A DNA stretch of 64,000 bases, from assembly GCF_031882575.1 (NCBI RefSeq), contig NZ_CP134772.1, positions 4,235,001-4,299,000 on the forward strand. Reading direction: 5' to 3'. The position numbers and the translations under genes are program-made. The number at the start of each line of letters is the position of its first letter. The stretch's first letter is position 1. The notes under the pieces were generated by a model. The model had not been told where the DNA came from and did no database searches. It was given only the letters and a program-made list of their open reading frames with translations. Source of the stretch: Pseudomonas sp. VD-NE ins (GTDB lineage: Bacteria > Pseudomonadota > Gammaproteobacteria > Pseudomonadales > Pseudomonadaceae). Positions 3,531 to 48,277 of the stretch are shown here, one piece after another.

Positions 3531-3563
3531 TTGACTTGCAAATGATAATGATTATTATTGCAT
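3531..3563 (+). promoter_or_regulatory. Fur-box promoter of prrF
   Basis: A -35-like TTGACT (3531-3536) and a -10-like TATTAT (3553-3558) are separated by 16 bp. The spacer and -10 are covered by an AT-rich stack of ATAAT-type units (3541-3560) that matches the Fur operator pattern GATAATGATAATCATTATC well. Binding of Fe-Fur here would block RNA polymerase, giving expression only under iron starvation. Confidence 0.85.
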
Positions 3564-3565
3564 GC

Positions 3566-3678
3566 AGCTGGTCGCGAGATCAGTCGATGGACCAGAGACC
3601 TTAGGTCGGTCTTCTGGACTATCTCCTCATCAGGCTAATCACGGTTTTTGACCCGGCTTTTTGCCGGGTCTTTTTTTT
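3566..3678 (+). ncRNA. prrF: PrrF iron-responsive small regulatory RNA
   Basis: The stretch after the Fur box carries the conserved PrrF core, including CTATCTCCTCATCAGGCTAA and the following TCACGGTTTTTGACCCGG, and ends in a strong intrinsic terminator. PrrF RNAs base-pair with mRNAs of iron-containing proteins (sodB, TCA cycle and heme enzymes and others) through the core, with Hfq, and so spare iron when Fur is inactive. The 5' end is estimated from the promoter spacing and could be off by a few bases. Only one copy is present here; P. aeruginosa has two in tandem, while other pseudomonads carry them at separate loci. Confidence 0.9.
3650..3678 (+). terminator. Rho-independent terminator of prrF
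   Basis: GACCCGGC and GCCGGGTC form a GC-rich stem around a T-rich loop and are followed by eight T residues. Confidence 0.9.
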
Positions 3679-16362: not shown

Positions 16363-17493
16363 GTGCCTGCCCACCCGCCGAAACGATCGCGACTGATCCA
16401 GCGCTGGCCGGCGTTGCGCCGCTGGTTCGGCAAGGGCCTGCAGGCCAGCGCCGGGCATGACGCCAGTGGCCAGTCGATCCGCGACTTCTTTCGGCGCAAG
16501 GCCAGCGGTCAGGGTTACACCCTCAGCCACAGCCAGCTGCGCGTCATCGAATGCATGGCGCAGCAGGCCAGTCTGTTGTTTGGCGCGAGCAGTCGAACCG
16601 CGCCGAGTCTCTATCTGTTCGGCGCTGTCGGGCGAGGCAAAAGCTGGCTGCTCGACGGTTTCTTTCAGGCCCTGCCGATCACCCAGAAACGGCGCCTGCA
16701 TTTCCATCAGTTCTTCGCACAATTGCATCAGGGCATGTTCAGCCATCGCGAGCAGGACGATGCCCTCGAAGTGACCCTCGACGAACTGCTGGAGGATTGT
16801 CGGGTGCTGTGTTTCGACGAGTTTCATGTGCACGACATCGGCGATGCCATGCTCATCACCCGGCTGTTCAAGGCGCTGTTCAAACGGCGGATTCTGCTGC
16901 TGGTCACCTCCAACTACGCACCTGAAGGGCTGCTGCCCAATCCGCTCTATCACGCCCGCTTCAAACCGGTGATCGAACTGATGAATACCCACATGCAGGT
17001 GATGGAAGTCGGTGGCCCGCACGATTACCGCAGCCACACGCGCCACTCTGCACATCAGATATTTACCCAGGGGCATTACGTGTGGCCGGCCACGCCCGCG
17101 CAACGCACCGCTCTGGATTTGCCCTCTGCAGATGCACCTGCCATTGCGCTAACGGTCGGCACCCGGCAGTTTCAGGCTCGATTGTGTGAAGAGCGGCGTG
17201 TCGGTTTTACCTTCAGCGATCTGTGTGAGCAGCCGACGGCGGTCATGGATTATCTGGAACTGTGTCGACGGTTCGACCGCTGGATCATTGATGATCTGCC
17301 GGAACTGGGAGAATGCCCGATCGCCGCACAACAGCGCTTCATCAATCTGATCGACGTGCTGTACGACCAGGACAAACATCTGACGCTGCTCGGCCAGCTG
17401 CCCTTGCATGAAAGCCTGGACGGCCACGCCATTGACCTGGCGCGCACACGCAGCCGCTTGGGGCAATTACAGGAAGTGCACGAACCCGCCTGA
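16363..17493 (+). CDS. zapE: AFG1-family ATPase (ZapE-like)
   Basis: The P-loop ATPase of 376 residues has Walker A LFGAVGRGKSWLLDGF, Walker B RVLCFDEFHVHDIGDAM and a sensor region LLLVTSNYAPEGLLPNPLYH, which is the AFG1/ZapE signature. E. coli ZapE associates with the division ring; mitochondrial Afg1 helps membrane protein turnover. Pseudomonas usually has more than one member, so the division role is uncertain here. The GTG at 16363 with GGAG nine bases upstream is preferred; the longer frame would start at a TTG without a ribosome site. Transcribed away from the pilus operon. Confidence 0.82.
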   Translation: MPAHPPKRSRLIQRWPALRRWFGKGLQASAGHDASGQSIRDFFRRKASGQGYTLSHSQLRVIECMAQQASLLFGASSRTAPSLYLFGAVGRGKSWLLDGFFQALPITQKRRLHFHQFFAQLHQGMFSHREQDDALEVTLDELLEDCRVLCFDEFHVHDIGDAMLITRLFKALFKRRILLLVTSNYAPEGLLPNPLYHARFKPVIELMNTHMQVMEVGGPHDYRSHTRHSAHQIFTQGHYVWPATPAQRTALDLPSADAPAIALTVGTRQFQARLCEERRVGFTFSDLCEQPTAVMDYLELCRRFDRWIIDDLPELGECPIAAQQRFINLIDVLYDQDKHLTLLGQLPLHESLDGHAIDLARTRSRLGQLQEVHEPA

Positions 17494-38879: not shown

Positions 38880-40751
38880 TCAAAACCGCTTGATCTCAGC
38901 CTGAGCTTCCAACTGCTTGCGATACGCCGCAAAGTCCTGCTGCCCCTCACGCGAAGCAAGGAAACGACGGTACTGAACCTTCTCTTCATCCGTCGGCGCA
39001 GCCGCTTCGTTAACGCCATTCAGACGCACGATCATCAGACTGCCATCCGGCAACGTCACGCTGGTGAACGTCGGCTTGTCCTTCGCAGCCGGCTTCGGCA
39101 TACGGAACAAAGCTTGCAGCACCGCCGGATCAACACCTTCCTGACCACGGGTGGCCGCTTCGGTAGCTTTCCAGTTCTGACCTTCAACCGCTTTGTCCAG
39201 CGGAGCCTTGCCATCGCGCAGATCAGCAATCAGCTTCTCGGCCTTGGTCTTGGCAGCCGCGCTGGCGTGCTCTTTGGTCAACTGAGTGCGGATAGCCGCA
39301 TTCACGCTTTCCAGCGGCAGTTGCGCAGGCTTCAGGTGCTCCTTGGAACGCAGCACGATCACGGTTTCCGGATCCAGCTCGATGGCGGTGCTATTGGCAC
39401 CTTCGTCGATCACTTCGGTGCTGAACGCTGCGGTGACCACAGCACGGTTCGCCGCAACACCTTCGCCACCTTCACGGCCGAATGGCTTGGAGGTGTGCAC
39501 GGTCAGCTTCAGATCCGCCGCTGGCTGAGCCAGGTCAGACGCTTCGAACGCGGAGTCTTCCAGTTGCTTGGTCGCCTCGACAAAACGCTGCTCGACTTGC
39601 GCGGCTTTCAGCTCGCGGGTCAGCTTGTCTTTCAGGCTGGCCAGGGTCGGCACTTCAGGCGCTTCCACCCCCAACAGCTTGATCAAGTGGTAACCGAAGT
39701 CGGTACGAATCGGCTCGGACACCTGGTCTTTCGACAGCGAGTACAAAGCTTTTTCGAACGCCGGGTCGTAAACACCAGGCCCTGCATAACCGAGGTCACC
39801 GCCGTTATTGGCCGAACCCGGATCCTGCGAGAACTCCTTGGCCAGTGCTTCGAATTTCTCGCCCTTGGCCAGACGCGCCTGGACGTCTTCAATCTTCGCC
39901 TTGGCCTGAGCTTCGGTGGTCTTGTCGTTCACTTCGATCAGAATATGCGCGGCACGACGCTGTTCCGACAGGTTGGCGATCTCTTTCTGATACGCCGCCT
40001 GCAGGTCTTCGTCTTTCACGGCAACCTGATCGAAGAACGAAGACTTCTTCAGCTCAACGTAATCGATGATCACTTGGTCCGGAGTCATGAACTCCTTGGC
40101 GTGTTCGTCGTAGTAAGCCTTGACTTCGTCGTCGGTCAATTTGACCGCCGCCGGGTCAGCCTTGACGTTCAGGGTCGCGAAATCGCGGGTCTGTTTTTCC
40201 AGACGGGCGAATGCCAGCACTTCAGCGTCGGTGACGAAACCGCTGCCTGCCACACCGGCGCGCAGTTGGCCGATCAGCATTTCCTGAGCCAGCATCTGGC
40301 GGAACTGCATACGGCTGTAACCCAGTTGACGGATCACCTGGTCGAAACGCTCGGAGCTGAACTTGCCGTCCACCTGGAATTCAGGTGTCTGCAGGATCAC
40401 TTGGTCCAGTGCGCCTTCGGAGAAAGCGAATTTCGCTTGTTCGGCGCCTTGCAGCAGCAGCTTGCGATCGATCAGACCCTTGAGGGCCGATTCGCGCAGC
40501 ATTTTTTCGTCGAGCAAGGAAGCATCGAAGTCCTTGCCCAGCTGTTGCATCAGCTGGCGGCGTTGCATATCAACGGCCTGGCTCAGCTCGTTCTGGCTGA
40601 TTTCATCACCGTTGACCTTGGCCGCCTCATTCTTGTGAGTCGTGGCCTGGAAAATGGCGTCGAAACCGGTCAGAGCCATCAGTGCAACGATGACCCCGAT
40701 AATGGTCTTGGCAATCCAGCCTTGTGAATTGTCCCTGATATTCTGCAGCAT
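38880..40751 (-). CDS. ppiD: Periplasmic folding chaperone PpiD (SurA-like, parvulin domain)
   Basis: The 623-residue inner-membrane-anchored protein has a single N-terminal helix (TIIGVIVALMALTGFDAIFQ), a SurA-like N-domain, one parvulin-type domain (RRAAHILIEVNDKTTEAQAK through DFGYHLIKLLG, about 265-360), and a long C-terminal region. It stands at SecYEG exit sites and assists folding of exported proteins. The order lon-hupB-ppiD is standard in gamma-proteobacteria. A tRNA-like RNA lies between it and hupB. Confidence 0.94.
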   Translation of the reverse strand: MLQNIRDNSQGWIAKTIIGVIVALMALTGFDAIFQATTHKNEAAKVNGDEISQNELSQAVDMQRRQLMQQLGKDFDASLLDEKMLRESALKGLIDRKLLLQGAEQAKFAFSEGALDQVILQTPEFQVDGKFSSERFDQVIRQLGYSRMQFRQMLAQEMLIGQLRAGVAGSGFVTDAEVLAFARLEKQTRDFATLNVKADPAAVKLTDDEVKAYYDEHAKEFMTPDQVIIDYVELKKSSFFDQVAVKDEDLQAAYQKEIANLSEQRRAAHILIEVNDKTTEAQAKAKIEDVQARLAKGEKFEALAKEFSQDPGSANNGGDLGYAGPGVYDPAFEKALYSLSKDQVSEPIRTDFGYHLIKLLGVEAPEVPTLASLKDKLTRELKAAQVEQRFVEATKQLEDSAFEASDLAQPAADLKLTVHTSKPFGREGGEGVAANRAVVTAAFSTEVIDEGANSTAIELDPETVIVLRSKEHLKPAQLPLESVNAAIRTQLTKEHASAAAKTKAEKLIADLRDGKAPLDKAVEGQNWKATEAATRGQEGVDPAVLQALFRMPKPAAKDKPTFTSVTLPDGSLMIVRLNGVNEAAAPTDEEKVQYRRFLASREGQQDFAAYRKQLEAQAEIKRF

Positions 40752-40820: not shown

Positions 40821-40846
40821 AAAGGCGCATCCGAGGATGCGCCTTC
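40821..40846 (-). terminator. Hairpin downstream of hupB/tRNA-like RNA
   Basis: AAGGCGCATCC and GGATGCGCCTT pair around a two-base loop. On the minus strand TTTCTTC follows, a moderate terminator separating hupB and the tRNA-like RNA from ppiD. Confidence 0.75.
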
Positions 40847-40853
40847 TCGTAAC

Positions 40854-40929
40854 TGGCGGAGCGGACAGGGCTCGAACCCTCGATCCCGGCGTTACAGGCA
40901 ACTGTTTCAGCTACCTGCTCTACCGCTCC
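40854..40929 (-). tRNA. tRNA-like RNA or degenerate tRNA (not a normal cloverleaf)
   Basis: A 76-nt segment has tRNA ends: a perfect 7-bp acceptor stem (GGAGCGG with CCGCTCC), T8-A9, the GGGTTCGAGCCC T-loop core at the standard position, and an encoded G73-CCA end. The D and anticodon arms do not form: the expected anticodon stem has at most three pairs and the loop reads CTGTAAC one base out of register. The same bases instead make a 10-bp hairpin (CAGGTAGCTG, loop AAA, CAGTTGCCTG with two G-T pairs). It is either a decayed tRNA or a structured tRNA mimic. It lies between co-directional hupB and ppiD and is followed by a terminator hairpin. Confidence 0.5.
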
Positions 40930-40979
40930 GCTGCCAAGTCAGGCATGACCCCGACCCGGATGGGTAAAAACCTGAAAAC

Positions 40980-41252
40980 TTAGTTAACAGCTTCTTTCAG
41001 TGCTTTACCGGCTTTGAAACCTGGCTTCTTGGCAGCCGGGATTTCCAGAGTCTTGCCGGTTTGAGGGTTACGACCGGTACGAGCCGGACGGTCCGTCACG
41101 GAGAAAGTACCGAAACCAACCAGAACAACGGAGTCGCCAGCCTTCAGAGCGCCAGTGACGGATTCGATTACAGCGTCCAGCGCACGGCCAGCAGCAGCTT
41201 TCGGGATATCAGCGGATGCAGCGATAGCATCAATCAGTTCCGACTTGTTCAC
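40980..41252 (-). CDS. hupB: DNA-binding protein HU-beta
   Basis: The 90-residue nucleoid protein begins [20 protein letters not shown] and has the DNA-clasping arm [19 protein letters not shown] and C-terminal [15 protein letters not shown] of HU. HU dimers bend and compact DNA. It is downstream of lon with a 148-bp gap that should hold its own promoter. Confidence 0.96.
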
Positions 41253-47798: not shown

Positions 47799-47875
47799 TG
47801 GGGTGGACGATGGGGATCGAACCCACGACAACGGGAGTCACAATCCCGTGCTCTACCAACTGAGCTACGCCCACC
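47799..47875 (-). tRNA. tRNA-His (GTG), distal copy
   Basis: The cloverleaf has acceptor GTGGGCG with CGTCCAC, the histidine-specific extra G at -1 (position 47875) opposite C73, anticodon GTG in ATTGTGACT and an encoded CCA. It is identical to the copy at 48093-48169. Confidence 0.96.
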
Positions 47876-47951
47876 ATATTGCGTAACAAAAAAGCCAAAC
47901 AACTTCTTTGTTGAAACCTCACCAGCCCGAAGACATGAATGAAGCTTTAAT

Positions 47952-48036
47952 TGGTGCGGATGAAGAGACTCGAACTCTTACGCCTCGCGGCGCTGGAACC
48001 TAAATCCAGTGTGTCTACCAATTCCACCACATCCGC
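47952..48036 (-). tRNA. tRNA-Leu (TAG)
   Basis: An 85-nt class II tRNA has acceptor GCGGATG, anticodon TAG in GATTTAGGT, a long variable arm (CGCCGCGAGGCG) and an encoded CCA. It is located between two tRNA-His genes. Confidence 0.95.
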
Positions 48037-48052
48037 GGGTGAAGCTTTAAAG

Positions 48053-48087
48053 CAAAGGCGCCAGACTGTTACATCTGGCGCCTTTCG
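48053..48087 (-). repeat. Internal copy of the tRNA-operon hairpin
   Basis: The same GGCGCCAGA/TCTGGCGCC hairpin and flank as at 47761-47790 follow the first tRNA-His, but without the long T run. Hairpin and tRNA-His were duplicated together. Confidence 0.85.
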
Positions 48088-48092
48088 AAATA

Positions 48093-48169
48093 TGGGGTGG
48101 ACGATGGGGATCGAACCCACGACAACGGGAGTCACAATCCCGTGCTCTACCAACTGAGCTACGCCCACC
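48093..48169 (-). tRNA. tRNA-His (GTG), proximal copy
   Basis: The sequence equals the tRNA at 47799-47875, including the extra 5' G and the CCA. It lies second in the operon after tRNA-Arg. Confidence 0.96.
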
Positions 48170-48200
48170 ATATCGCGTTACTTGTGCCAAAGCTGCCTAA

Positions 48201-48277
48201 TGGCGCACCCGGCAGGACTCGAACCTGCGACCATCCGCTTAGAAGGCGGATGCTCTATCCAGCTGAGCTACGGGCGC
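48201..48277 (-). tRNA. tRNA-Arg (TCT)
   Basis: A 77-nt tRNA has acceptor GCGCCCG paired with CGGGTGC, anticodon TCT in CCTTCTAAG and an encoded CCA. It is the first tRNA in the operon. Confidence 0.95.

Follow-up and report, generated by a model that had tools for sequence, protein, structure and literature searches.

A remodelled relic of a tRNA-Asp gene behind hupB in Pseudomonas, probably kept as a structured end of the hupB mRNA

Pseudo-tRNAs are often dismissed as products of decay or as integration scars. The window (the whole stretch of DNA analysed here, 64,000 nt long) raises the question of whether that dismissal suits a 76-nt element between hupB and ppiD, which carries the ends of a tRNA around a middle that does not fold like one. 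On the minus strand, positions 40929-40854 read GGAGCGG ... CCGCTCC G CCA; the 7-bp acceptor stem (GGAGCGG/CCGCTCC, perfectly paired) and the CCA of a canonical tRNA are both present, and pairing of C-1 with G73 and of G-2 with C74 lengthens the stem to 9 bp (P1). The length of 76 nt, the perfect acceptor stem, G73, the encoded CCA and the lack of a cloverleaf all agree with a preliminary description of this DNA, as do the flanking genes: in the 64-kb window, hupB, the element and ppiD lie on the same strand and point in one direction (Table 1). We take the upstream gene to be hupB on the strength of that description and of recognition of its sequence, rather than of a family search.

Table 1. 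Features of the hupB-ppiD region (positions in the window)
Feature	Position	Strand	Remarks
tRNA-Asp-derived element	40854..40929	-	76 nt; acceptor-like closing stem, two inner hairpins, encoded GCCA
P1 5' arm GCGGAGCGG	40923..40931	-	seven acceptor bases plus G-2 and C-1
P1 3' arm CCGCTCCGC	40856..40864	-	includes G73 and C74
P2, the central hairpin of the preliminary description	40894..40918	-	11 bp, AAA loop, variable middle
P3, hairpin in place of the T arm	40865..40890	-	GGGATCGA GGGT TCGAGCCC
Encoded G73-C-C-A	40854..40857	-	
H1, 10-bp hairpin	40934..40959	-	between the hupB stop codon and the element
Terminator-like hairpin	40821..40846	-	11 bp, loop CTCG
hupB (HU protein)	40980..41252	-	GTG start; upstream of the element
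ppiD	38880..40751	-	downstream of the element; anchor for orthologous loci; name taken from the preliminary description

The hairpin at 40821-40846, described earlier as the element's own terminator, is present; it has the look of a terminator for hupB transcription and is not necessarily the element's alone. Its T tract is weak (CTTTCTTC), and a terminator pattern scan did not list it. A near copy of this hairpin (91%) occurs elsewhere in the same genome (L002, G000:C1:5133273-5133306). The window also holds a PrrF small RNA at 3531-3678 (Rfam, 158 bits) and, at 47799-48277, four tRNA genes (Arg, His, Leu, His) in an unremarkable cluster.

As a single strand, the element has a predicted fold of -38.2 kcal/mol (z -3.62), and 1 of 200 shuffled sequences folded as well. 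The fold consists of the closing stem P1, P2 (11 bp, AAA loop) and the second hairpin, P3; when the flanks are included, H1 (10 bp) precedes the element and a long hairpin comes after it. The central hairpin with its AAA loop was therefore described correctly except for its length, which had been given as 10 bp and is 11 bp in the computed fold. The standard T arm that had also been described is missing from the predicted fold, where its bases (GGGATCGAGGGTTCGAGCCC) form P3, which takes in the TTCGA motif. The D and anticodon arms of a canonical tRNA are likewise absent, P1 and the two hairpins standing in their place, and by inspection two pairs of the former anticodon stem are left. ARAGORN did not call the element as a tRNA in a scan of the window. 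Scoring with the Rfam tRNA model, a check that the preliminary description had proposed, gave 18.5 bits, below the gathering score of 29, and indicates that the element is not a canonical tRNA. No Rfam family reached its threshold on the element; NsiR9, at 14.1 bits on the plus strand, lies far under its threshold of 90 and was rejected as an identity. A model of the window's type of element, run against its own genome for paralogues at E values up to 0.001, recovered only the element and four tRNA-Asp genes.

We searched the hupB-ppiD stretch against 149 Pseudomonas genomes and read the intergenic region in all of them. The stretch was matched in 149 of 149 genomes; a single match ran from hupB into ppiD in 140, and the ppiD start was seen by reading in the other nine. 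In 10 of the 149 (L019-L021, L053, L088, L093, L094, L096, L098 and L102), the slot before ppiD holds an intact tRNA-Asp(GTC), which shares the element's acceptor stem and has similar flanks and the terminator hairpin. ARAGORN called all 10 intact copies and, as Tyr, Asp or Asn, 5 of the 139 non-intact loci (L006, L007, L041, L060 and L062); such calls on these five relics may amount to false annotations there. Outside the genus, an intact tRNA-Asp precedes ppiD in 3 of 25 loci of the same family (L248, L251 and L262) and in 7 of 26 loci from other families of the order, where the seven fall in four families (L272, L273, L278; L275, L279; L280; L285). These 26 loci are the best-scoring of 95 genomes searched, and one of them, L276, has almost no upstream DNA. 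In another family of the order, two loci (L281 and L284) have upstream of ppiD what resembles the remains of a stem, GGAGCGG...GCTC, which may be a relic that arose independently.

Because an intact tRNA-Asp holds the orthologous slot in the genus, in the family and in other families, the tRNA gene is ancestral and the element is the relic. By sequence comparison, the window element is a remodelled descendant of an ancestral tRNA-Asp(GTC) gene in the 3' region of hupB, and with same-locus descent from a tRNA gene and loss of tRNA features it counts as a pseudo-tRNA. The proposal that the element derives from a tRNA is upheld by these relatives; absence from related genomes, which had been named as evidence against it, was not found, as the hupB-ppiD stretch is matched in every one of the 149 genomes. 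An integration scar was rejected, as hupB-ppiD adjacency is kept across the 149 genomes and the relic is full length.

Beside tRNA-Val, the window genome carries a further four tRNA-Asp genes, whose acceptor stem differs (GCAGCGG/CCGCTGC); the element is therefore redundant for decoding. A near-perfect tRNA-Asp match was found in all 149 genomes (best E at most 2.3e-30), and the ten genomes with an intact copy at the hupB locus have two to five tRNA-Asp matches each. Had the relic of the window genome been repaired with those four genes as template, it should share their acceptor stem; it keeps GGAGCGG/CCGCTCC instead, and we rejected such repair for this genome. The 15 intact rows of a 99-locus tree, built by quick search from lon, hupB and ppiD DNA (with a constant offset giving the ppiD start in nine rows), are spread over the tree and imply 8 changes under Fitch parsimony or 20 losses if loss is irreversible. 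The intact copies L019 and L020 are nested in a relic clade, which a return by recombination could explain. The redundancy seen in all 149 genomes and the many losses on the tree are what would be seen if the element were a simple pseudogene, that is, a redundant tRNA-Asp copy in neutral decay whose stems are kept by recency or by chance. How the paired and unpaired parts of the relics have changed bears on this explanation.

Predicted structure is of limited use here. When folded without modifications or tertiary contacts, the intact tRNA-Asp is also predicted to form P1 and two hairpins (-34.0 kcal/mol) in preference to the cloverleaf (-30.2 kcal/mol), and the working tRNA-Asp of the same genome folds alike (-33.8 kcal/mol for the two-hairpin form and -30.0 kcal/mol for the cloverleaf); since a working tRNA-Asp receives the same fold, prediction alone cannot show that a cloverleaf has been lost. 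Among the distinct non-intact elements 65-95 nt long, 94 in number, two hairpin loops within P1 were predicted for 86, and the mean z is -2.08. Because prediction favours this fold for the intact tRNA-Asp and 86 of the 94 adopt it, the relics seem to have slid, lineage by lineage, into an alternative fold that the intact sequence already offered. Excess structure is slight in the 21 shorter elements (mean z -0.91), and in shorter lineages the stem alone is left (e.g., L087, L099, L104 and L143). As presence counts made without a shuffle control, a helix of at least 6 bp ending near the terminator was found in 31 of the 34 most divergent loci (L118-L151), and an H1-like helix of at least 6 bp in 98 of 105 non-intact loci and in all 34 of that divergent set. 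When helices were compared with those of shuffled sequences (L106 entering without an anchor), an equally good one arose in 2 of 40 shuffles for the window and in 32 of 40 for L092. Because shuffles of this G+C-rich sequence often give an equally good helix, single sequences do not prove P1.

For compensatory change across loci, we took the arms of P1 from an alignment not fitted to the structure, which holds 142 sequences, 129 of them non-intact; it takes in 25 further loci (L244-L267 and L270) and leaves out 32 (L120-L151). All nine P1 pairs are present in 92 of the 129 non-intact loci and at least eight in 106 of 129; within the genus, the corresponding counts are 90 and 100 of 108. P1 is paired at only three to six of its nine positions in 17 of the 129 loci, 12 of which are among the 21 loci from other genera. 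Among 35 distinct arm pairs, 89.8% of cells are paired and 8 of the 9 pairs have changed on both sides; 22 cells carry double changes, against a mean of 7.0 in shuffled controls (0 of 500 as high), although these counts do not remove shared ancestry. Covariation, in which shared ancestry is likewise included, is 0.386 for the same arm pairs and at most 0.137 when the partners are slid. Compensatory changes in the acceptor stem, which the preliminary description had put forward as a check, are thus present genus-wide.

Most relics at which rates could be compared belong to the window's type or to a second type, of which P. mandelii has an example. Every cell of P1 is paired (100%) in the 21 distinct sequences of the former and the 36 of the latter. 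In the window's type, P2 is 90.9% paired, and a standard pair is missing at its central position in 8 of the 21 distinct sequences. Whole-structure controls for this type gave modest results: 10 of 500 equalled it in paired cells, 6 in score and 17 in one further of the five measures, and no excess appeared in pairs with double changes (201 of 500) or in pair types (114 of 500). The second type fares better, being 92.6% paired with 15 double-change cells against 7.3 in controls (0 of 500); its pair-type count is null (263 of 500).

Substitution rates were estimated on 80 loci (L158-L237): the window's type accounts for 28 and the second type for 45, and the rest are 6 intact genes and 1 other. 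In the 28 species of the window's type, each arm of P1 had 0.00 parsimony changes per site, as did the leader CAGTTACGAG, and the terminator hairpin had 0 changes over 24 columns (3 in the 45 species of the second type). The P3 half had 0.12 changes per site, or 0.04 in the 27 species whose element is exactly 76 nt long (L179, at 77 nt, being left out); H1 had 0.54. P2 with its joints had 2.06 changes per site, and all of P2 had 2.2 in the 27. Third codon positions in the 28 species had 1.36 changes per site in hupB and 3.01 in ppiD, and second positions of hupB had 0.055; in the 27, the 0 changes of P1 compare with 1.37 and 3.3 per fourfold site in hupB and ppiD. Between the terminator and ppiD the rate in the 28 is low too, at 0.17 changes per site, and a wider constraint may therefore play a part. 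In the 45 species of the second type, the 5' arm of P1 had 0.00 and the 3' arm 0.67 changes per site (0 and 6 changes), the P2 part 1.88 and the P3 part 1.82, against fourfold rates of 2.19 in hupB and 5.74 in ppiD. Judged against these rates, P1 is strongly constrained in both types; P3 is strongly constrained in the window's type, and the interior of the second type is moderately so.

The middle of P2 behaves differently. Its six middle positions, which were picked for being variable, average 5.3 changes against 3.3 at ppiD fourfold sites, and one of them has 9 inferred changes; 65 of 204 ppiD fourfold sites also reach 5. The rate in the middle of P2 is therefore close to that of free sites or a little above it. 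The central hairpin had been singled out as the part whose conservation would argue for function, and we rejected it as a conserved functional core, since its middle holds the most variable sites of the element. Among the paired positions, whose free drift had been named beforehand as refuting evidence, those in the middle of P2 are variable and those of P1 are conserved. Both helix ends of P2 are nearly fixed while its middle pairs change fast, a pattern for which we have no good explanation.

These rates speak to two of the alternatives. For a simple pseudogene, P1 and P3 of the window's type change far too slowly beside fourfold sites, even the interior of the second type stays under the fourfold rate, and P1 covaries across the genus; we consider neutral decay improbable. 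The earlier suggestion of a decaying tRNA was thus right about the origin, and plain decay is contradicted because P1 and the 3' half show near-zero change in the window's type and P1 shows compensatory changes. Pairing could also be kept without selection if template switching at inverted repeats copied one arm of a stem onto the other. The variable middle of P2 is what a short-hairpin hot spot of this kind might give, albeit at sites chosen for their variability; however, P2 is not kept perfectly paired, and, quite unlike a hot spot, the arms of P1, which are ~58 nt apart, are wholly unchanged in the window's type. Such mutational repair is highly improbable as the cause of the conserved stem.

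The reading that we favour, with a probability of roughly 0.6, is that the element is a tRNA-Asp relic kept as a structured 3' UTR of hupB, capping the mRNA and separating it from its terminator. Transcription of hupB would run through H1, the stem-closed module and the terminator hairpin. P1 would be what is left of the acceptor stem, and the sequence of the old D, anticodon and T arms would have refolded into two hairpins, the alternative predicted for the unmodified intact sequence. We infer that the folded block may keep exonucleases away from the 3' side of the hupB mRNA and may also stop upstream sequence from disturbing the terminator. A block that served as cap and spacer would therefore place selection most strongly on P1 and more weakly on what P1 encloses. 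The tRNA shape has been lost in most of the Pseudomonas species examined, the outer stem is usually still paired, and the relic is probably now a structured tail of the neighbouring mRNA.

A related explanation gives P1 a different task: the relic would be kept because RNase P cuts its 5' end and thereby makes the 3' end of the hupB mRNA, terminated by H1, tRNA identity being lost and the cleavage signal kept. An acceptor-like stem with a 3' RCCA, one trait of RNase P substrates, is present in the window element, and such a stem with RCCA occurs in 98 of the 129 aligned non-intact loci. Passages of PMC12710915 report that bacterial RNase P RNA cuts model hairpins, including small RCCA-bearing substrates, that the RCCA motif matters and that some mRNAs are processed as well. 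The tRNA T stem-loop, another such trait, is absent from the element's fold, where P3 replaces it, and several forms with P1 no longer have a T loop (e.g., L077, L087 and L089). In addition, the possible pair of C-1 with G73 may displace the cut or make it less efficient, and RCCA is absent from 31 of the 129 loci and overlaps the extended stem and the conserved leader where it occurs. With the acceptor stem and RCCA kept, cleavage by RNase P is possible on sequence grounds; that it is the reason for the relic's retention seems doubtful to us. We hold as tentatively a joint version, in which the genus would have made a tRNA gene into the module that ends the HU mRNA. Many lineages would have given up tRNA identity yet kept the acceptor stem with RCCA as an RNase P-type processing and stability signal, and the enclosed arms would have refolded repeatedly to one three-way shape, which prediction already favours for the naked tRNA sequence.

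We consider it unlikely that the element is set free as a small RNA with partners in trans, for instance CCA-dependent enzymes, EF-Tu, a chaperone or target RNAs. The preliminary description had suggested a tRNA mimic recognised by RNase P, CCA-dependent enzymes or EF-Tu; we found no direct support for it, and none at all for a charged or EF-Tu-bound form. Its tRNA-like ends and the strongly conserved 3' half in the window's group are compatible with such a role, and there is a precedent in the Bacillus cereus pseudo-tRNA tRNA-Other, which, according to passages of PMC3399842, lies outside translation and has effects when deleted. A weak lead comes from P. aeruginosa PA14, in which short RNAs from the hupB locus (the gene plus 50 bases on each side) were the third most abundant in membrane vesicles, at 16,968 counts; the relevant passages of PMC4905634 do not give their place within the locus. 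However, the interior differs strongly between clades, so no seed or binding motif is shared besides P1, and the predicted P3 takes away the geometry of a T arm. A promoter scan found 0 promoters where 0.5 were expected by chance; it says little, as the chance expectation is itself close to none. Apart from the hupB-locus lead, we found no paper on the element or its transcript in the portions of the open-licence PMC literature available to us: the main text of PMC5870498 names neither hupB nor PA1804, the likely pseudo-tRNA of SBW25 named in passages of PMC7661048 is a Cys one and not this element, and passages of PMC4720416 and PMC5541441 mention HupB as a protein only.

The locus offers in one genus a full series from intact gene through remodelled full-length relic and shortened stem to plain hairpin, and rates and compensatory changes reveal which part is kept. 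At the hupB locus, the idea that a tRNA can turn into an mRNA element is open to testing, and there is a warning that conserved tRNA ends do not imply tRNA function.

The closest known counterpart of the element is the hupB-linked tRNA-Asp(GTC) of the Pseudomonadales (e.g., L019, L102, L248 and L272), which occupies the same position. Its orthologues within the genus share the acceptor stem, G73, the encoded CCA, the flanks and the terminator hairpin with the element, whereas the element lacks the D, anticodon and standard T arms in its fold, is not called by ARAGORN, falls below the Rfam threshold and, by inspection, has GUA rather than GUC at the former anticodon. According to passages of PMC3399842, B. 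cereus tRNA-Other is likewise a tRNA relic thought to serve outside translation, there within longer transcripts; however, it adjoins a genomic island, whereas the element belongs to the 3' region of a core gene across the genus and has been remodelled to a different fold. The tRNA gene fragments left by integration, as described in passages of PMC9897764, are also low-scoring tRNA-like sequences that prediction programs can misjudge; unlike these fragments, the element is full length, hupB and ppiD are still adjacent, and there is no sign of integration. RNAs derived from 3' UTRs in P. aeruginosa, reported in PMC8545117 (the main text of which does not include hupB), are likewise structured RNAs at mRNA 3' ends, whereas the element is known here from sequence alone. 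Among these systems, the element is a pseudo-tRNA probably put to another use, a conserved stem-closed RNA behind hupB.
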